Shown here in pieces: positions 1 through 9,758 of a DNA stretch of 10,883 nt (its first letter is position 1; each line of letters begins with the position of its first letter). The position numbers and the translations under genes were made by a program. A model generated the notes under the pieces. The model did not search any database. It was not told the origin of the DNA and saw only the letters and a program-made list of their open reading frames with translations. The stretch is taken from assembly GCA_027083665.1 (NCBI GenBank), contig JALWNV010000277.1, forward strand, positions 1 to 10,883, given 5' to 3'. The DNA is from Helicobacteraceae bacterium. GTDB lineage: Bacteria > Campylobacterota > Campylobacteria > Campylobacterales > Sulfurimonadaceae.

Positions 1-1632
1 TCCTCCGCCGGTGTGCAAGAGGTACGCCTGGGTGCGATGTTCTCCAATGCCCCCGCCCTCGACAGGGAGCGCTATATCCGGCAGATTGCGCTGGATATCC
101 AGCAGATCGCACTGGGTGCACCGGCGGAGGAGCAGCCGGTCGACTTTACCCCGCAGCCGTCGCTTTCGATCAATCTCCGTACCGCGAAGGAGGTTGGTTT
201 CGATCCCAGCTGGGAATTTCTCTCCAAAGCCGTCATCATCGAGGACGAATACAGCGATTCGCACTATTTTACGCTCGAAGAGATCATGGACCGTGCCACG
301 CATTTCAACCTCAATGTCGTTGCCGCCGGCCACGATACCGAATCGGCCCGTCAGAAATACGAACGGTCCCGCAGCCGCTATCTGCCGCAGCTGTATCTGG
401 GGGCGGAAGCGGCACAGATCGACGAAGACCGTGCAACCGCGAGTCTGGGCCTGTACAACCAGACACGGGTGGATGCCTATCTCAAAGCGACGCAGGAGCT
501 CTACAATCAGCGCCTGCTCGCCGGTATCAGTGTGAACGAACATTTTATGCAGGCCAAACAGCATGCCCGGGACTATGTCAAACTCGAAGTGGCGATGCGT
601 GCGGCGACGCTGTATATCCGTATTTTGCAAATCAAGACCCAGCTCGAGATCGAGAAGAGCAATCTGGAGCTTTCGCGTACCAATATGCGTGCGGCGGAAG
701 TGAAAAAGAACATCGGAATCGGCCGCAACAGCGATATCTATCGCTGGAAAAGCCAGATCGCGCAGGAAAAGCGCCGTATGCTCGAGACCTACGCGAAGCT
801 TCAGCAGGTACGCTATACCCTCAACGCCTTGCTGAATCTGCCGCAGGAACTGCCGCTGAACTTCAAAGAGACGCAGATGCAAGACGGTCCCTATCTGACG
901 CGCAACAGGATTTTGCTGCCGTACTTCGAAGAACCCAAACGGTTCTCGGCGCTGGAGGGCTACCTTGTCGAAGTGGGCCGGAGCAATGTACCGACACTCA
1001 AGCAGATTTCGCAGATCGCGCAGGCGCGCCGCCGTATCGTCGAGTCGAACAAGGAAGCGTTCTATGCGCCGGATCTTTCGCTCGAAGGCGGCGTCCGCCA
1101 GCATTTCGTCACTTCGCAGAACAATGTGCGCGATACCGATCCCAATCTGGCGAAGTATCCCTATGCGGACGATACCGATTGGCAGATCGGGATGTTTTTG
1201 CGTTTTCCGCTCTATCTCGGGGGAGGGAAGACGTCGGACCTGGAGCGTTCGCGTGCGGAGCTGCTGTCGACCGAAGCGAAAAAGAGCGATCTTGAAAACA
1301 GTGTCGAACGCGATATCCGCAATACCCTATACAAGGCCAAGGCGGCGTATCTGTCCATCGGATTGGCGGAGGAAGCCTACAAAAGTGCGCGCGCAAACCT
1401 TAAAGTCGTCAAGGATATCTATTCGCAAGGCGGCGTGGACATTATCGTGCTGCTCGATGCGCAAAACACCGCACTCAAAGCCGCGTTGAGCGAAAATAAC
1501 GCCCGTTACGGTTTCCTCGAGTCGCTGCTGATGCTGCAGTACCGCATCGGACAAGTCAATTTCAATCTCGATGAAGAGAAATGGGCGGCGTTTCTTGCCG
1601 GATTGCAGCGCTACGAGGAGGAGATGGAATGA
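1..1632 (+). CDS. TolC-family outer-membrane efflux protein with substrate-binding-like N-terminal domain (5' partial)
   Basis: This is the outer-membrane channel of a tripartite efflux pump. The frame is open to base 1, and no signal peptide is visible, so the gene begins upstream of the window; a GTG at 13 is probably an internal Val codon. Of 543 visible residues, about 1-82 do not look like TolC. They contain an 'INLRTAKEVGFDPSWEFL' block preceded by an 'LGAPAEEQPVDF' segment, which matches my memory of the C-terminal end of ABC-type substrate-binding proteins (ABC_sub_bind family). From about residue 89 ('YFTLEEIMDRA') the protein is a standard outer-membrane efflux protein with two long helical hairpins. 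The second half has the typical 'PLYLGGGKTSDLERS' turn and a 'YSQGGVDIIVLLDAQ' motif near the end. The stop overlaps the adaptor start by four bases, so the two are co-translated. The efflux function is secure; the fused domain is inferred from resemblance. Confidence 0.9.
   Translation, partial: SSAGVQEVRLGAMFSNAPALDRERYIRQIALDIQQIALGAPAEEQPVDFTPQPSLSINLRTAKEVGFDPSWEFLSKAVIIEDEYSDSHYFTLEEIMDRATHFNLNVVAAGHDTESARQKYERSRSRYLPQLYLGAEAAQIDEDRATASLGLYNQTRVDAYLKATQELYNQRLLAGISVNEHFMQAKQHARDYVKLEVAMRAATLYIRILQIKTQLEIEKSNLELSRTNMRAAEVKKNIGIGRNSDIYRWKSQIAQEKRRMLETYAKLQQVRYTLNALLNLPQELPLNFKETQMQDGPYLTRNRILLPYFEEPKRFSALEGYLVEVGRSNVPTLKQISQIAQARRRIVESNKEAFYAPDLSLEGGVRQHFVTSQNNVRDTDPNLAKYPYADDTDWQIGMFLRFPLYLGGGKTSDLERSRAELLSTEAKKSDLENSVERDIRNTLYKAKAAYLSIGLAEEAYKSARANLKVVKDIYSQGGVDIIVLLDAQNTALKAALSENNARYGFLESLLMLQYRIGQVNFNLDEEKWAAFLAGLQRYEEEME
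1615..1623 (+). promoter_or_regulatory. Strong Shine-Dalgarno deciding the adaptor start
   Basis: GAGGAGGAG lies inside the last codons of the TolC-family gene. Its AGGAGG core is seven bases upstream of the ATG at 1629, which selects this ATG over an in-frame upstream start at 1581 that would place 16 non-signal residues in front of a lipoprotein signal peptide. Confidence 0.8.
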
Positions 1633-2711
1633 GATTTGTTTTCATGGGCGTCGCATTTTTGATATTGCTGACCGGATGCGACAAGACACAGCCTGAAGAG
1701 AAGGTCCGCCCGGTCAAGACCCTCGAGTTGACACCGACGCGGGCGGTTTCGGTCACGACATTCAACGGGGTGGCCCGCTCCGACGTTGCCGCCCGGCTGA
1801 GTTTCAAAGTCGGCGGGACGGTGGTCAAAATCAACGTGCGTATCGGGCAGGAGGTCAAGCAGGGCGATGTTATTGCCGAACTGGACGATTCGCTCTATCG
1901 TCTGAAGCTCGATGAGGTCCGGGCGTCGCTCAAACAGGCCCGGGCGAAGCTCTCGAGCGCCAAAAACCATTACAAGCGCGTCAAAAAGCTCTATGTCAAT
2001 CACTCGACTTCGCTCAGCGAGCTCGAAAACGCCCGTACCCAAAAAGAGCTGGCGGAAGCAAGTTACAAAGCGGTCAAAAGCCACCTCGACGAGGTTAAGC
2101 TTCAGCTGAGCTACACGAAGCTCAAGGCGCCGATCGACGGTTCGATCTCCAACATTCTTATCCACGAGAACGAAAATATCTCTCCGGCGGTAACGGTTGC
2201 GACGATCAGTTCGACGCGCAGTATTGAAGTGCCGATCTCGGTGCCGGGATCGCTGATCGACAAGGTGGAAGTGGGACAGAGCTGCGAAGTCTATTTCGAT
2301 GCCGTCCGAAAAGAGCCTTTCGATTGCGAAATCAGCGAAGTGTCGCACGCTTCGGATATGCATACGACGACGTTCCCCGTCGTCGTGAAAGTGATCGAGC
2401 CGACCAAACGTATCCGTCCCGGTATGGCGGCGTCGGTCGAGCTGCGTTTCAATACCTCGGACAAGCAGATGTGCAACTGCTACGTTGTTCCGGCACATGC
2501 ACTGATGGAAGATGCGAAAGGGCCGTATCTCTACGTTGTCGAAAACATTCATAAAGATGTCGGTGTGGTCAAGCGCAGAGACGTCGAGCGCGGCGGCCTG
2601 ACCGAAAAAGGGATTATCGTCACCAAGGGTGTCCGGCGCCATATGCATGTCCTGACGGCCGGGATGAGCCGGGTGCAGGAAAATCAAAAAGTGCGGCTGC
2701 TGGAAGAGTGA
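1629..2711 (+). CDS. RND efflux periplasmic adaptor subunit (membrane fusion lipoprotein)
   Basis: A 360-aa adaptor (HlyD/AcrA type) that would bridge the RND permease and the TolC-family channel in the periplasm. The ATG at 1629 overlaps the previous stop as ATGA and gives a clean lipoprotein signal: Met-Arg, a hydrophobic run, then the lipobox LTGC with lipidated Cys17. The first lipoyl half is at about residues 53-90 (VGGTVVKINVRIGQEVKQGD), followed by an alpha-helical hairpin at about 92-158. The second lipoyl half is at about 160-193 (LKAPIDGSIS), then the beta-barrel and membrane-proximal domains. The length is normal for the family. Four Cys besides the lipidated one (219, 233, 282, 284, the last two as MCNC) are unusual for an adaptor. 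The stop overlaps the permease start. The substrate cannot be told from sequence. Confidence 0.93.
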   Translation: MRFVFMGVAFLILLTGCDKTQPEEKVRPVKTLELTPTRAVSVTTFNGVARSDVAARLSFKVGGTVVKINVRIGQEVKQGDVIAELDDSLYRLKLDEVRASLKQARAKLSSAKNHYKRVKKLYVNHSTSLSELENARTQKELAEASYKAVKSHLDEVKLQLSYTKLKAPIDGSISNILIHENENISPAVTVATISSTRSIEVPISVPGSLIDKVEVGQSCEVYFDAVRKEPFDCEISEVSHASDMHTTTFPVVVKVIEPTKRIRPGMAASVELRFNTSDKQMCNCYVVPAHALMEDAKGPYLYVVENIHKDVGVVKRRDVERGGLTEKGIIVTKGVRRHMHVLTAGMSRVQENQKVRLLEE

Positions 2712-5700
2712 TGCGAAAGAGTCTGACCGAAATCATTATCCGGCGAAACCGGGCCACACTGACGATACTGCTTTTTTTCCTCGTCAGCGGGATGATCGCC
2801 TTTTATACGATGCCGCGGGCGAAAGATCCGAATTTCGCGATCCACACCGGTGTTGTCAGCACGATTTTCGCGGGGGCGACCCCGTCGCGGATCGAATCAC
2901 TGGTGACGATTCCGCTTGAACGGCAGCTGCGTCAGATCGACGAGATCGACCATCTCGAGTCGACATCGAAAAACGGGATGTCGCTGATCTATATTTATGT
3001 AAAAGAGCGCTACAAGAAGATCGAGCCGATCTGGGATAAAGTCCGCAGCAAGATCGCGGATGTCCGTTTGCCCAAAGAGGTGCAAAAACCCCGTTTCGAC
3101 GAGAGCTACTCCACCGTCTTCGGGACGCTGGTCACCCTTGTCGGAGAGGGGTACAGCTATGCCGAGCTCGAAAAGATCGCCAACCATGTCAAAGAGGAGT
3201 TCCTCAATATTCCCGACGTGGGCGACGTCGAGATCTTCGGACTGCAGAAACAGCATATCTATATCGATTTTTCCAATGCGAAACTGGCGGAACTCGGGCT
3301 CTCGCCGAGTGCGCTGGGACAGATTATCCGCGAGCGCAACATCATTACGCCCGGCGGTGCCGTAACGGTCGGCCCCAAGCGGCTGATTCTCGAACCGACG
3401 GGAAACCTCAAAAGCCTCAAAGAGCTTGGCAAGACCATCGTCCCGCTGCCCGGACGCAAAGAGGTCGTCTACCTCGAAGATATCGTCCGTATCCACAGCG
3501 GCTACAGCGATCCCAAGGAGCCGATGAGCCGTACCAACGGCGAACAGAGCCTGATTTTGGCGATCTCCGTCTCGAAAACCGGCGATATTATCGCCCTGGG
3601 GAAAGCGATCAAGGAGAAGATCGCCGAGTTCGAGGAGCACTATCCTATCGGGATCGAGTTCAACATCGCGTTCGACGAGCCGAAACTGGTCGAGTATATT
3701 ATCGGCAATTTCACCGGCTCGCTGATCACCTCGATCCTGATTATTGTCGTCGTGATGTTTATTTCGCTGGGATGGCGGATGGGCCTGATCGTGTCGACGG
3801 TCATTCCGGCGACGATTCTCGCCTCGCTGGCGATCATGTGGAAGACGGGCATCGGTCTCAACCAGGTTTCGCTCGCGGCATTGATTATTTCGCTCGGACT
3901 GCTGGTGGACAACGCTATCGTCATCAGCGAATCGATCGTCGCGAAAATGGACGAGGGTGCTTCGGCATTTGATGCGGCGATTTCGTCGGTGAAAGAGCTG
4001 CGGGTCTCGCTGCTGACCTCTTCGCTGACGACGGCGGCGGCGTTTTTGCCGATCTATCTGGCGGAGTCTCTGGCAAGCGAATATGCCAGCGCACTCTTTG
4101 AGGTCGTCACGATTACCCTGATCAGTTCGTGGGTGCTGTCGCTGACGATTGTCCCGATGCTCAGTACGATTTTCTTCAAAAAGCGCAAGGTGACGAAATA
4201 TACCTACAATAATCTGGTGTGCAATACGTTCAAGCGTCTGCTGTGCAATTCGCTGAAATACCGCGGCCTCTCTTTGCTGGCCATTGCCGGCATTTTCATT
4301 CTGGCGCTGCTGCTGTCGAAATCGATTCCGAAAATCTTTTTTCCGCCGAGTGCCCAGCCGTCGATGGTCGTCCGGGTATCGCTGCCGCAGGGAACGACGA
4401 TCGACTACACGCTCAAAACCGTGGAAAAGCTCGAAGCGTTTTTAAATGCGCAACGGCCGGAGCTTGTCGAGAATTTCAGCAGTTTCGTGGGGAAAGGGGC
4501 GCCGCGTTTCTGGATCAATAACACCCCTGTTCCGCGTTCGGACAACTATGCGGAGATTCTGGTCAACGCCGTTTCCCTCGAGGCGGATGAAAAGCTGCAC
4601 GAGATGATCGAGCAGTTCGGTTTCAATGAACTGACCGATGCGGAAGTGAGTGTGAAAAAGCTCGACAACGGACCTCCGGTCAAAAACCCGGTCCAGATTC
4701 GTATCAGCGGACCGGACGTCAGCGAAATCACCCAGCGTGCCTCCCGGCTCAAGCAGGAGCTGGCGGGGCTTAACATGGTCACGCATATTTCCGATGACTG
4801 GGGAGGATGGACGCAAAAGGTCGTGGTCAATATCGATCCGTTTCTGGCCTATCACGCCGGGGTTAGCTATCATGATATCGCCTCGTCGCTTCAGATCGCG
4901 CTCAGCGGCTGGGATGTTACCGAGTTCAGGACCGCCTCTATGACGATTCCGATCACGCTGCGTTCGGGACAGTCGAAGCTCCCTTCGCTCGAATCGCTCA
5001 AAAGTACACTGATTTTCGTCCCTTCGACGGGCAAATCGGTGCCGCTGGCGCAGGTGGCGACGATCGACATCGTCTGGAAACCGCCGAAGCTGATCCGCTA
5101 CAACGGTGTCCCGACTGTGACGGTCATCGCCGGATTGCGCGAAGGGGTGACGGCGTTCGATGTCAAAGATGCCGTGACACCGTGGCTGAAAGCGCAGCAG
5201 TGGCCGCGCGGATACCGTTACGCTTTCGGCGGTGAGGTGGAGAGTTCCAACGAGGCCCAGGGGGCCATTGCGGACAAACTGCCGATCGCGGGGATGATCA
5301 TTTTGATGCTGCTGATGCTGCAGTTCAATTCGGTCCGCCGGACGGCGATTATACTGATCACGATTCCGCTGGGAATCATCGGGGTCATTGTCGGGCTGTT
5401 TCTGACGCATTCGTATTTCGGTTTCATGACCTACCTTGGCGTCATCTCGCTTATCGGTATTGTCATCAACAACGCGATCATTCTGATCGAGCGGATCGAG
5501 TATGAGATTCATGATATGAAACTGCTCCCGCAAGATGCCATTATCGAGGCCGCCCAGCGGCGTATGCGTCCGATCCTGCTGACGACGCTGACGACGATCG
5601 GCGGTTTGATTCCGCTGTGGATCAGCGGCGGACCGCTGTGGGAGCCGATGGCGATCGCGATTATCTTCGGACTCAGCTTCGCGACGGTATTGACACTGGG

Positions 5701-5782
5701 TGTCGTTCCGATCTTTTACGCGATTTTCTTCGGGATCCGCTACCCCCGAGACTATCAGTTCATCCGCAGCTGCCAGATATAG
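2711..5782 (+). CDS. RND efflux transporter permease (HAE1-type, AcrB-like)
   Basis: A 1023-aa inner-membrane proton antiporter, full length for the AcrB-like family. The ATG at 2711 shares its A with the adaptor stop TGA; a GTG at 2708 is a less likely alternative because the GGA core at 2702-2704 is spaced better for the ATG. A first membrane helix (about 13-31) is followed by a large periplasmic porter region with the family blocks 'AGATPSRIESLVTIPLE' and 'RYKKIEPIWDKVRSKI'. Five or six helices cover about 332-485. A second helix (about 520-537), a second porter loop and a final helix bundle (about 857-1005) repeat the pattern. Helix 4 carries GLLVDNAIV with Asp400, matching AcrB Asp407, while the next position is Asn instead of Asp408. 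In helix 10 the AcrB Lys940 position is Asn (INNAIIL). Both swaps also occur in other HAE1 subgroups. The substrate is unknown. Confidence 0.95.
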   Translation: MRKSLTEIIIRRNRATLTILLFFLVSGMIAFYTMPRAKDPNFAIHTGVVSTIFAGATPSRIESLVTIPLERQLRQIDEIDHLESTSKNGMSLIYIYVKERYKKIEPIWDKVRSKIADVRLPKEVQKPRFDESYSTVFGTLVTLVGEGYSYAELEKIANHVKEEFLNIPDVGDVEIFGLQKQHIYIDFSNAKLAELGLSPSALGQIIRERNIITPGGAVTVGPKRLILEPTGNLKSLKELGKTIVPLPGRKEVVYLEDIVRIHSGYSDPKEPMSRTNGEQSLILAISVSKTGDIIALGKAIKEKIAEFEEHYPIGIEFNIAFDEPKLVEYIIGNFTGSLITSILIIVVVMFISLGWRMGLIVSTVIPATILASLAIMWKTGIGLNQVSLAALIISLGLLVDNAIVISESIVAKMDEGASAFDAAISSVKELRVSLLTSSLTTAAAFLPIYLAESLASEYASALFEVVTITLISSWVLSLTIVPMLSTIFFKKRKVTKYTYNNLVCNTFKRLLCNSLKYRGLSLLAIAGIFILALLLSKSIPKIFFPPSAQPSMVVRVSLPQGTTIDYTLKTVEKLEAFLNAQRPELVENFSSFVGKGAPRFWINNTPVPRSDNYAEILVNAVSLEADEKLHEMIEQFGFNELTDAEVSVKKLDNGPPVKNPVQIRISGPDVSEITQRASRLKQELAGLNMVTHISDDWGGWTQKVVVNIDPFLAYHAGVSYHDIASSLQIALSGWDVTEFRTASMTIPITLRSGQSKLPSLESLKSTLIFVPSTGKSVPLAQVATIDIVWKPPKLIRYNGVPTVTVIAGLREGVTAFDVKDAVTPWLKAQQWPRGYRYAFGGEVESSNEAQGAIADKLPIAGMIILMLLMLQFNSVRRTAIILITIPLGIIGVIVGLFLTHSYFGFMTYLGVISLIGIVINNAIILIERIEYEIHDMKLLPQDAIIEAAQRRMRPILLTTLTTIGGLIPLWISGGPLWEPMAIAIIFGLSFATVLTLGVVPIFYAIFFGIRYPRDYQFIRSCQI

Positions 5783-7388: not shown

Positions 7389-9170
7389 ATGGTACGTATG
7401 ATGAACCATATAAGGTTGCTGTCTTTTTCGTTTATTGCAGCAGTGATAGTAGGCTGCGGCGGTGGCGGCAGCAGTAGTAATGCCGCAACACAGACGGGAA
7501 GTACGGGAAGCAGTTCGAGTACGGCGGCAGCGACGGGGCGTATCGAAGGATATTTGCAGGATGCACCGGTTTCGGGAATGCAATATGTCTGCGGCGCAAA
7601 GCAGGGACTGACAGGAGAAGACGGCAGGTTCGAATGTGAGAACGGACCGGTCGCGTTTTGGATCGGAGGAGTGAAGATCGCGGTATTGGATACGCCGACA
7701 CCAGACGGTGCGGTTTATCCTCAGGATCTGCTGGGGTTGGACCGGGCCAACCTTACCGATGCGCGGCTGATCGAACTGACACAGTTTCTGCAGGCGCTTG
7801 ACGATGACGGTGTGATCGACGAACGCATCACGATTACGCAAAATCGCCGCGACGCATTCAAGGATGTCGAGGGCGACCTGAGCGGATGGGCGAAAGACGG
7901 GCAAGACGGCGAGGGGATCGACACCCCTTCCGAAGCGGCGGAAGCAGGGGGCTTGACACCGCCGGCTCCGGGCGGCGCGATCCATCATCTGCGCACTCAG
8001 ATGGATCCCGATGCCGATACACCTGCCGATACGAGTGATATGTCAAAGTATGCCGGTGACTGGGTCGGTCAGGGCTGGGGCTGGGAGATCCGCTTCAAGC
8101 ATACCTCGGGAGATTTTGTCTCCGATACGTTCGGGGTAAGCAGTGACGAGCTGAATTTCGACGGAGAGAAGATCATCATGTCGCTGATGGTGGAACACCA
8201 GACGACCTATACGCTTCATATTGATGAGAACGGTCAGATTACGGGAGAGGGGGATATCGTCTATAACCTTATTCCGAATCTTTGCGGCCTCAATGCCCTG
8301 GCGACGCAGGTGAATACCGCGGTCAACCTGATGTCGAAAATGCCGGAGTTTTTCAAACTGGGTGCAAGTATCAACAAAGAGACGGTGGAAAAGTTCGTGG
8401 TCGACAACACCAACCTGGAGAGCTGGATGGTCAAACTGGTCAAAGGCGATGTCGTCGGTGCCGCAAAGGACAAGCTGGATGCCGCCGTCAAAGATATGGG
8501 CAAGAAGCTGGTGCAAAAAGCGCTTGAACAAAGCGACGACGCGAAAAAAAGCGGTAATGTCTGCAGTGCGGCGGCGGGACTTTTGGCGACCGGCGGCGGT
8601 CAGAGTGTCGGGCCGAGTTCGCTTGACGAGATTGTGAACAATGCGAAGCTCGGTGTGGCGAAAGCGCTGCTGGGAGACATTCCGAGCCCGGCGAGCCTGA
8701 TACTCTCCGTCCCCGGGGTCACTCAGGTGCAGTACAATTACAAAGGACTGCAAAACGGTCCGGAAACGCGTTATTACACGATCAAGGGTTATATCGAAAA
8801 CGGCAAGATGTATCTCTGGGTCGATCAGATGGAAACGCCGTTCGATCTCGTCATCGAGTGGCAGGTCAACTATCGCACGGAAACGGCAACATTCCCGGTA
8901 TGGTCACCGTTTATGGATGATCCGGCCGTCATCTATCCGGCGGGAAAAGAGGTCGTCACGTATGAATATGTGACAGAATTGGTGGAAAAGAGCTATACGG
9001 AAAACGGTAAGAAGAAGACGGTGACGGTGCCGGAAAAACGTTTGAAAGCCAAACAGACAAATCTGTCGGTGCCGTTTGCGATCTTCGATCAAAAAGGGAC
9101 GCACAGAAACGGCAAGTCAATGTGGCATGAGTACGAATACAACTGGAAGGCATACCGGATGCCTCAGTAA
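7389..9170 (+). CDS. Outer-membrane lipoprotein of unknown function
   Basis: A 593-aa exported lipoprotein. AAGGAGA five bases upstream fixes the ATG at 7389. The signal peptide ends in the lipobox IVGC with Cys23, then GGGGSSS and a Ser/Thr/Ala linker to about residue 49; Gly at +2 suggests outer-membrane sorting. Residues about 50-140 (GRIEGYLQDAPVSGMQYVCG ... TGEDGRFEC ... FWIGGVKI ... LTQFLQALDDDG) resemble a small beta domain I remember from many lipoproteins and surface proteins, in which an 'AxVSGxxYxC..G.T...G.F' stretch is followed by a 'FLQsLDdDGd' helix. A Pro/Asp-rich spacer runs to about 217. Residues about 218-295 look beta-rich, about 300-440 look helical, and about 441-590 look beta-rich again with many Tyr and Trp. 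Cys68/83 and Cys299/392 could form disulfides. I recognise no function for the part after residue 217, and no neighbour is co-transcribed with it. Confidence 0.88.
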   Translation: MVRMMNHIRLLSFSFIAAVIVGCGGGGSSSNAATQTGSTGSSSSTAAATGRIEGYLQDAPVSGMQYVCGAKQGLTGEDGRFECENGPVAFWIGGVKIAVLDTPTPDGAVYPQDLLGLDRANLTDARLIELTQFLQALDDDGVIDERITITQNRRDAFKDVEGDLSGWAKDGQDGEGIDTPSEAAEAGGLTPPAPGGAIHHLRTQMDPDADTPADTSDMSKYAGDWVGQGWGWEIRFKHTSGDFVSDTFGVSSDELNFDGEKIIMSLMVEHQTTYTLHIDENGQITGEGDIVYNLIPNLCGLNALATQVNTAVNLMSKMPEFFKLGASINKETVEKFVVDNTNLESWMVKLVKGDVVGAAKDKLDAAVKDMGKKLVQKALEQSDDAKKSGNVCSAAAGLLATGGGQSVGPSSLDEIVNNAKLGVAKALLGDIPSPASLILSVPGVTQVQYNYKGLQNGPETRYYTIKGYIENGKMYLWVDQMETPFDLVIEWQVNYRTETATFPVWSPFMDDPAVIYPAGKEVVTYEYVTELVEKSYTENGKKKTVTVPEKRLKAKQTNLSVPFAIFDQKGTHRNGKSMWHEYEYNWKAYRMPQ

Positions 9171-9176
9171 CACGAA

Positions 9177-9190
9177 AGCGGGGATCCGCT
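9177..9190. terminator. Short hairpin between convergent genes, possible weak two-way terminator
   Basis: AGCGG-GGAT-CCGCT forms a five-base-pair stem in the 18-base gap between the lipoprotein stop and the cytochrome stop, and it overlaps the cytochrome's TAG. On the - strand TTTC follows the stem, and on the + strand ACTTTCC. There is no full T tract on either side. Confidence 0.3.
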
Positions 9191-9758
9191 ACTTTCCTCC
9201 GCACTTTCCTGGACCGCACTTCATGGCGCCGCCGCATTTGCCCGGACCGCATTTCATCATGCCTTTTCTTTTGGCTTTGTTTTTGCCGCCGGCATTGCAG
9301 GCCATGTTCCGGTCATCGGCGTCCCATGTCGAGGTGAATCCGTCCACGATCCACGCTGAAACGGTGTCGAGTTCCGAGGCGGTGAGTGTCCTGCCGATCG
9401 GAGGCATGGTGCCGAACCGCTGCAGCGCCATCGGCATGCAGTGCGCTTTTTCTTCGCTTGGGTTGACGATGTAGTCTTTGACAAATGCGATGATTTTTTC
9501 CCGGTCGCCGCCGAAGTCGTGTTTGAGCTTGGCGCTGACCTTGCTCATCGGCGGCGCTTTCATCGTATGCATGATCTTTTGCTTCATCGCCCGGCGCTCG
9601 CCGGGGCTCATCTGCATCATTTTCTGCCGGTCCATCGGCGGTTTGAGCATGTGGCATGCCTGGCATTTGGCTTTGAAAATGTCCGTACCGCCGCTGTTCG
9701 CATTGAGCGTAAGCGCCGAGAAAAGCACCGCAGCGGTGAGAATCAATGTTTTTTTCAT
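9189..9758 (-). CDS. Periplasmic monohaem c-type cytochrome with tandem Cys-Gly repeat tail
   Basis: A 189-aa exported protein. Its Sec signal peptide, MKKTLILTAAVLFSALTLNA, is probably cleaved after Ala20. The haem site is CQACH (Cys32, Cys35, His36). A Met-rich, basic segment follows (about 42-71, nine Met). Residues about 104-140 hold a Cys-Met-Pro-Met / RFGTMPPIG block ending in a helix (LTASELDTVSAWI), the usual class I cytochrome C-terminus, with Met118 the likely second haem ligand. The fold should end near 145. The last 35 residues are a Lys-rich linker with Cys154 and two copies of MKCGPGKCGG (168-177, 179-188), giving four Cys outside the haem domain. AAGGA lies seven bases before the ATG. 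Electron transfer is likely, and metal binding or a modified tail is inferred. The redox partner is unknown; no oxidase or maturation gene is nearby. Confidence 0.9.
   Translation of the reverse strand: MKKTLILTAAVLFSALTLNANSGGTDIFKAKCQACHMLKPPMDRQKMMQMSPGERRAMKQKIMHTMKAPPMSKVSAKLKHDFGGDREKIIAFVKDYIVNPSEEKAHCMPMALQRFGTMPPIGRTLTASELDTVSAWIVDGFTSTWDADDRNMACNAGGKNKAKRKGMMKCGPGKCGGAMKCGPGKCGGK
9195..9257 (-). repeat. Two tandem 10-residue MKCGPGKCGG repeats in the cytochrome tail
   Basis: Two copies of a 30-base unit encode identical peptides separated by one Ala codon. The copies differ at several third positions (AAA/AAG for Lys, CCG/CCA for Pro, GGC/GGA for Gly). This suggests the duplication is not recent and that the peptide, not the DNA, is being kept. 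Confidence 0.9.

Follow-up and report, generated by a model that had tools for sequence, protein, structure and literature searches.

An exported mono-haem cytochrome c with a tandem KCGxGKCG tail, its metal-efflux-linked family in Campylobacterota, and the probable copper-binding role of the tail

The tailed cytochrome gene and its neighbours

The window (the whole 10,883-nucleotide stretch of a Helicobacteraceae contig that was analysed) carries on its minus strand, at 9189..9758, a gene for a 189-residue exported mono-haem c-type cytochrome with a cysteine tail, as judged by its translation and its orthologues. All of the features described for this protein lie on the same strand. Residues 1–20 (9699..9758) resemble a Sec signal peptide, whose boundary we estimated by eye from the sequence. 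The haem-binding motif CQACH, a CxxCH near the N-terminus of the mature domain, occupies residues 32–36 (9651..9665), and C32, C35 and H36 were invariant in A1, our alignment and profile of 13 tailed orthologues including the window protein. A fourteenth sequence (L024), with two half motifs, was left out of A1 and was included in a 14-sequence alignment. A methionine-rich insert fills the stretch from the haem motif to KAPP (residues 37–66, 9561..9650), with eight methionines in 30 residues; the 14 sequences compared had 4–13 methionines within 30–42 residues. The core also carries CMPMA (residues 107–111, 9426..9440), invariant in A1, and an FGxMPxxG motif, read here as FGTMPPIG. Its M118 (9405..9407), likewise invariant in A1, is the probable axial haem ligand by analogy with cytochrome c families.

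Support for the cytochrome assignment from family profiles was real, yet modest. The Pfam Cytochrome_CBB3 match had an E-value of 6.7e-6 and 26.8 bits against a cut-off of 27, and the second figure in the Cytochrome_CBB3/Cytochrom_C profile test was 17.5 against a cut-off of 21.3. A PDB sequence search with the window protein returned nothing useful (best E-value 0.27), and among plasmids there was a single weak match, which did not include the tail region.

A lysine-rich linker runs into MKCGPGKCGGAMKCGPGKCGGK, and the protein ends in MMKCGPGKCGGAMKCGPGKCGGK, followed by the stop codon. Pattern matching placed the first KCGPGKCG motif at 9232..9254 and the second at 9199..9221, the latter written in synonymous codons. 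Each belongs to an MKCGPGKCGG repeat, and six of the ten codons differ between the two repeats, all silently (those for K, P, G, K, G and G). An earlier note on this DNA had described a cytochrome ending in a tandem tail whose repeats use different synonymous codons. Both observations were borne out, and the interval given there, 9189–9260, is exactly the last 23 residues and the stop codon.

Convergent with the cytochrome gene is a 593-residue lipoprotein-like ORF (7389–9170, plus strand) with no Pfam family at an E-value of 0.1. The far side of the window (1–5782, plus strand) holds OEP, HlyD and AcrB-type RND efflux genes. The RND protein scored 290.7 bits with TIGR00914 against a cut-off of 701, was 22% identical to a CusA reference, and is by NCBIfam of the multidrug rather than the heavy-metal type. 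We rejected it as an operon partner of the cytochrome, being of the multidrug type and on the opposite strand, with an SRP54 gene and the 593-residue ORF between. No gene for the Cu/Zn transporter SO_0444, for ArsR or for CusCBA, nor any other metal-efflux gene, was found beside the window cytochrome. A search of its own genome, which is 76% complete, did not find an SO_0444 gene; a copper-type ATPase is encoded there on contig C72 (483 bits, cut-off 397).

Conservation of the tail and gene context of the family

The window protein was 42–63% identical to the 12 other orthologues in A1. In these 13 sequences K169, C170, G171, G173, K174, C175 and G176 of the tail were invariant or nearly so; the linkers between repeats varied in the alignment and the lysines, cysteines and glycines of the repeats were constant. 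Chance or local duplication as the origin of the tail is thereby rejected, since orthologues at this level of identity keep the motif.

A search of 228 family genomes with profile A1 separated 28 genomes scoring above 150 bits from other matches of at most 114 bits, a gap that is expected in part because A1 was built from tailed sequences. The lower matches mostly stopped near model position 140, ahead of the tail. The window protein, itself one row of A1, scored 265 bits and so falls inside the upper group, which is the subfamily of the efflux-cluster cytochromes described below. We inspected 30 family loci, comprising the 28 high-scoring genomes and two named Sulfurovum MAGs. The check on orthologues that the earlier note had proposed thus found the tail recurring with its cysteine spacing kept, and 26 of the 30 loci had an intact KCGxGKCG. 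The remaining four had two half motifs (G019), a tyrosine for one cysteine (G179), no tail (G013) or a contig end at this point (G047). The note had held that close relatives lacking the tail would speak against its proposal, and this was found in part, with the tailed cytochrome present in only two of the eight genomes of the genus. As a DNA pattern, KCGxGKCG occurred in 71 of 150 genomes (the own genome and its relatives) and the same pattern reversed in none of the 150; its recurrence exceeds chance.

The history of the tail was less simple. In a tree without L025 and the contig-truncated L186 (46 of 48 rows) the tailed rows fell on one side of a weakly supported branch (48/33). In a tree that included the tailless L025, a long branch, and omitted the duplicate L170 (46 rows), the tail needed two changes, and a single change was recovered in 0% of bootstraps. 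A single gain without loss is therefore not supported. The L025 relative itself (1468–1956 of that locus, genome G093) has a C-terminus rich instead in methionine and glycine, with one cysteine. At another locus (L144:7351–8747, G013) a tailless copy of the cytochrome lies near a small separate ORF with two KCGxGKCG motifs, an arrangement in which breakage or swapping of the tag is possible. A further conserved KCGxVxIxTH was found at the end of 16 of the 30 cytochromes (L111, L112 and L172–L185), all of one genus (g2), and its final histidine could be a metal ligand.

The tailed cytochrome family belongs to metal-efflux clusters. The best-resolved loci had a divergent ArsR/SmtB regulator followed by the tailed cytochrome, SO_0444, a small histidine-rich protein, TolC, CusB and CusA, with all genes except the regulator on one strand (families tested on L111). 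At other loci the tailed cytochrome had different neighbours: two-component genes and a copper ATPase at L105 and L044, and CusCBA with a copper ATPase and a multicopper oxidase of the copper-resistance type at L109. The family assignments exceeded their cut-offs at these cytochrome-family loci: SO_0444 (NF033936, 392.9 bits, cut-off 300), CusA/CzcA (TIGR00914, 930 bits, cut-off 701), multicopper oxidase (TIGR01480, 502 bits, cut-off 479), copper ATPase (TIGR01511, 609 bits, cut-off 397) and ArsR/SmtB (NF033788, 86 bits, cut-off 55).

At least one of SO_0444, CusA, CusB, the copper ATPase or the multicopper oxidase lay within 9 kb of the cytochrome in 28 of 29 loci. This count excludes the window, with which it would be 29 of 30 since the CusA reference matched the window's RND protein. 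Over the same distance, again with the window excluded, SO_0444 was present in 22 of 29 loci and a CusA-type protein of at least 77% identity in 16 of 29. The reference proteins for these counts were taken from L111, L109 and L105, and these three loci therefore match themselves. Within flanks of 1.5 kb, SO_0444 was found in 21 of 30 tailed loci versus 3 of 17 distinct tailless homologues (18 controls, in which L028 and L170 are one gene). Three tailless relatives of another family (L035, L037 and L038) also adjoin SO_0444, and the tail is thus dispensable for the operon role.

The ArsR regulator of these clusters carries CVCxxC, a motif of As(III) sensors, and would also fit arsenite. A comparable cluster has been described in Nitratiruptor SB155-2 (NIS_RS04910–04935), with SO_0444, a cytochrome c, a winged-helix regulator and TolC, and is reported to be induced by cadmium and copper (PMC10092412). 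There the cytochrome was induced by log2 4.34 with cadmium and 2.43 with copper; qPCR confirmed the induction, with lower cadmium values for the transporter and the cytochrome, and the authors called for further characterisation of the cluster (same study). Compared by make-up only, the family loci share all four of these components; the window copy differs in lying outside any such cluster. In Shewanella, growth under zinc or copper stress requires SO_0444 (PMC3219624).

The KCGxGKCG motif in relation to MNIO and HvfX

The tail motif is akin to those of the captophorins (the EGKCG/oxazolin/fontiphorin precursors HvfA and FonA), and our comparison supported the earlier note on this point. FonA carries AKCGEGKCGEK (PMC13097082), HvfA carries AEGKCGEGKCG (PMC13419390), and EGKCG-type peptides bind copper after treatment by MNIO enzymes (both sources). 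For such peptides an absorbance at 305 nm has been given (PMC13097082). The KCGxGKCG spacing, export and a copper theme are common to captophorins and the window protein. In addition, an HvfX-type DoxX gene is likewise present in the window's own genome, and such genes lie beside small tagged proteins in relatives. The two differ in that x is E in captophorins, P in the window protein and commonly A in its relatives, in that the captophorin motif is a free peptide and the window's a tail on a haem protein, and in that neither MNIO nor DUF2063 was detected in the window's own genome.

Other known proteins join a similar module to a folded domain. Published bufferin chimaeras (PMC12452194) include Cytochrom_C fusions with Buf1 (DUF2282) and Buf_EGKCG with an EF-hand. 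They resemble the present case in placing a cysteine metallophore module on a cytochrome c or an EF-hand (a tagged EF-hand protein occurs at L081); the published cytochrome fusions have Buf1, not KCGxGKCG as in the window protein. The same study found Buf_EGKCG precursors to be present in 67 of 2583 genomes without MNIO. Its authors suggest that a precursor whose gene is unlinked to an MNIO gene either is modified by an enzyme from another locus or stays unmodified. Our search of the open-access literature returned no paper with KCGxGKCG, CGAGKCG, KCGAGKC or CGxGKCG, and the tail was absent among the matches listed. PCuAC and methionine-rich periplasmic copper proteins also share the copper theme; of PCuAC and the window protein only the latter has a haem motif, and the PCuAC fold is unrelated to that of the cytochrome.

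The MNIO family (PF05114) was found in 15 of the 150 genomes. It was not found in the window's own genome (76% complete), in any of the eight genomes of the genus, four of which are single contigs, or in 26 of the 28 tailed-subfamily genomes, the exceptions being G016 and G039. DUF2063 (PF09836) was also not found in the own genome or genus. The note was thus correct that the window lacks an MNIO gene, and this extends to the genome as assembled, an outcome that the note had listed among those speaking against its proposal. DUF2063, the partner of MNIO, occurred in 14 of the 15 genomes with MNIO and in 0 of the 135 without it, which indicates that the MNIO search was sensitive and that the whole pathway is absent together. 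Of the genomes with MNIO, 13 of 15 carried the KCGxGKCG motif, as did 58 of the 135 lacking MNIO. In genus g14 the motif is accompanied by MNIO in all five genomes that carry it, and both uses of the motif, with and without the enzyme, thus seem present in one family.

HvfX, a DoxX-like protein of captophorin clusters, is a better predictor of the motif than MNIO. Among MNIO-less genomes, HvfX scored above its cut-off in 45 of 58 with the motif versus 2 of 77 without it (Fisher p 1.7e-21, uncorrected for kinship, which overstates independence since the genomes are related). The HvfX of the window's own genome (NF050144, contig C233) scored 79.7 bits alone and 100.8 bits with its in-frame neighbours against a cut-off of 80, and is not adjacent to the cytochrome gene. 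At this place (L188:1448–3633, minus strand) a gene of PF01645, a relative of glutamate synthase, follows HvfX directly. A close relative of this PF01645 protein was encoded within 1 kb of HvfX in 26 places in 25 of the 150 genomes, 23 of them MNIO-less, and in G093 it directly follows MNIO-DUF2063-HvfX. Of 20 loci from the HvfX list, some of them also on the motif list, and including one (L189) in which our script did not detect HvfX, 13 had a tagged or KCG-rich ORF no more than three ORFs from HvfX, with an intact motif in 11. A GMC oxidoreductase recurred near HvfX or tagged genes (L133, L199, L202, L206 and L207, and also L128 and L136), mostly with a partner resembling gluconate-2-dehydrogenase subunit 3 (families tested on L133).

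These associations raise the alternative that the tail is matured by a different system, consisting of HvfX and the adjacent PF01645 enzyme, a family that uses FMN. We consider this unlikely. The tracking of the motif with HvfX, the pairing in MNIO-less genomes including the window's own, and the arrangement in G093 speak for it, but HvfX did not exceed its cut-off in 13 of the 58 MNIO-less genomes that bear the motif, and the HvfX-adjacent PF01645 form occurs in only 23 of these 58. Moreover, we know of no PF01645 member that modifies cysteine peptides. HvfX itself is described as uncharacterised in PMC13419390.

The earlier note had proposed modification by an MNIO enzyme, which here would mean 5-thiooxazole groups on the tail, as in HvfA and FonA, and an enzyme gene that was missed. 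This proposal fared poorly, and we now regard it as very improbable. Its motif kinship is genuine, the motif accompanies nearly every MNIO, two genomes with the tailed cytochrome do have the enzyme, and the window's own genome is incomplete; against this stand the lack of PF05114 throughout the genus and in nearly all tailed-subfamily genomes, the joint absence of DUF2063, and the many MNIO-less genomes with the motif. The proline before GKCG, which the note had raised against its own proposal, is indeed present in both repeats, which read PGKCG and not EGKCG. As an objection by itself it did not hold, as the residue at this position in MNIO genomes was A, S or T in all 24 motifs of the fetched loci. 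The wider motif list also had E (G039:C37) and D (G056:C255) there, and proline was found in 5 of 146 motifs of MNIO-less genomes (fetched loci).

The tag was not confined to the cytochrome. Among the fetched loci, KCGxGKCG was present in 103 distinct ORFs from 70 genomes, 24 of them the cytochrome, counts that are biased and no random sample since cytochrome loci were deliberately chosen. The other carriers were many small exported peptides and PCuAC (138 bits), DsbD_2 (165 bits), HMA-domain, EF-hand, YtkA-like and lipoprotein ORFs. The tag was C-terminal in the cytochrome, DsbD_2, PCuAC, HMA and EF-hand carriers, and immediately followed the signal peptide or lipobox in YtkA-like proteins (L051, L053), a lipoprotein (L088) and many of the small peptides. 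At L135 the DsbD_2 homologue is directly upstream of ccoN and ccoO.

Several carriers deserve separate mention. The window's own genome encodes a DsbD_2-like membrane protein with a four-KCG tail, in a frame broken in the MAG (C163; L122:75–797), and the same genus has PCuAC copper chaperones ending in KMKCGSGKCGK or similar (L099:1054–1527 and L102). A family of lipoproteins combines a conserved DPR..C core with a GMKCGAGKCGAN-like motif past the lipobox (L088/L133, L089/L116 and L095; also L092/L123). Several genomes encode these lipoproteins next to CusA, as at L116, or a copper ATPase, as at L133; at L123 the neighbours were not metal genes. The L088 lipoprotein had no Pfam match.

Such a distribution could also be that of a sorting, anchoring or partner-docking signal for HvfX or another membrane protein, with no metal site, a reading to which we give little credence. 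It would account for a tag common to unrelated exported proteins and C-terminal in several of them, for its co-occurrence with the membrane protein HvfX, and for the further conserved end of 16 cytochromes. The best-identified carriers are, however, copper proteins (PCuAC, HMA, and DsbD_2 beside ccoNO), a C-terminal sorting signal would not usually stand behind a signal peptide or lipobox, as the tag does in some carriers, and the recurring HvfX neighbours identified, which are the glutamate-synthase-like and GMC oxidoreductase proteins, are not peptidases.

Interpretation of the tail

Based on these comparisons, the reading that we favour, and think reasonably likely, is of an efflux-linked mono-haem cytochrome with a modular, unmodified KCGxGKCG tag that would bind a soft metal, Cu(I) or another, beside the methionine-rich insert. 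Seen in this way, the part of the earlier note's proposal that joined metal handling to a haem protein stood, being the best reading of the tail's recurrence, its motif kinship and the copper or soft-metal efflux context of the family; the MNIO modification of the tail did not.

The cytochrome would be a redox partner or a metal-buffer subunit of copper, cadmium or zinc efflux under an ArsR-type regulator, with SO_0444 and CusCBA. Its flexible C-terminal tail would hold Cu(I) or another soft metal via free thiolates, and the methionine-rich insert could give a second Cu(I) site beside it. Metal held by tail and insert may be buffered near the pump and then passed to it, or it may be oxidised or reduced through the haem. 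We infer metal binding by the tail, the absence of post-translational modification, and the hand-over to the pump or haem redox step.

The cysteine tail is thus probably a copper-binding tag, to judge from its sequence and carriers. The company of the tag makes copper the best supported metal, with cadmium and zinc also candidates. The stronger induction by cadmium than by copper in Nitratiruptor counts against the copper reading (PMC10092412).

A broader and more speculative possibility, which we hold to be improbable though worth stating, is that Sulfurovum-type Campylobacterota have an MNIO-free counterpart of the captophorins. In such a system the tag would sit on many periplasmic copper proteins, the tagged set comprising the efflux cytochrome, PCuAC, the cbb3-linked DsbD_2, HMA proteins and small peptides. 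It would be served by HvfX and possibly by a glutamate-synthase-like maturation flavoenzyme, and the cytochrome's tag would place Cu(I) by a redox-active haem. An MNIO-free maturation system is less likely than the unmodified free-thiol tail.

Motifs of the EGKCG type are currently read as signs of copper peptides made by MNIO enzymes. Here such motifs proved common in genomes without a detected MNIO, were carried by redox proteins and chaperones with folded domains, and followed HvfX instead. Two questions thereby become directly testable, namely the role of HvfX and whether these motifs must be modified to function. Sulfurovum bacteria are sulfur-oxidising and often microaerobic, and for such sulfur-oxidising bacteria an unmodified metal-binding tail on an efflux-linked cytochrome would offer a candidate way to couple haem redox chemistry with copper or cadmium efflux.
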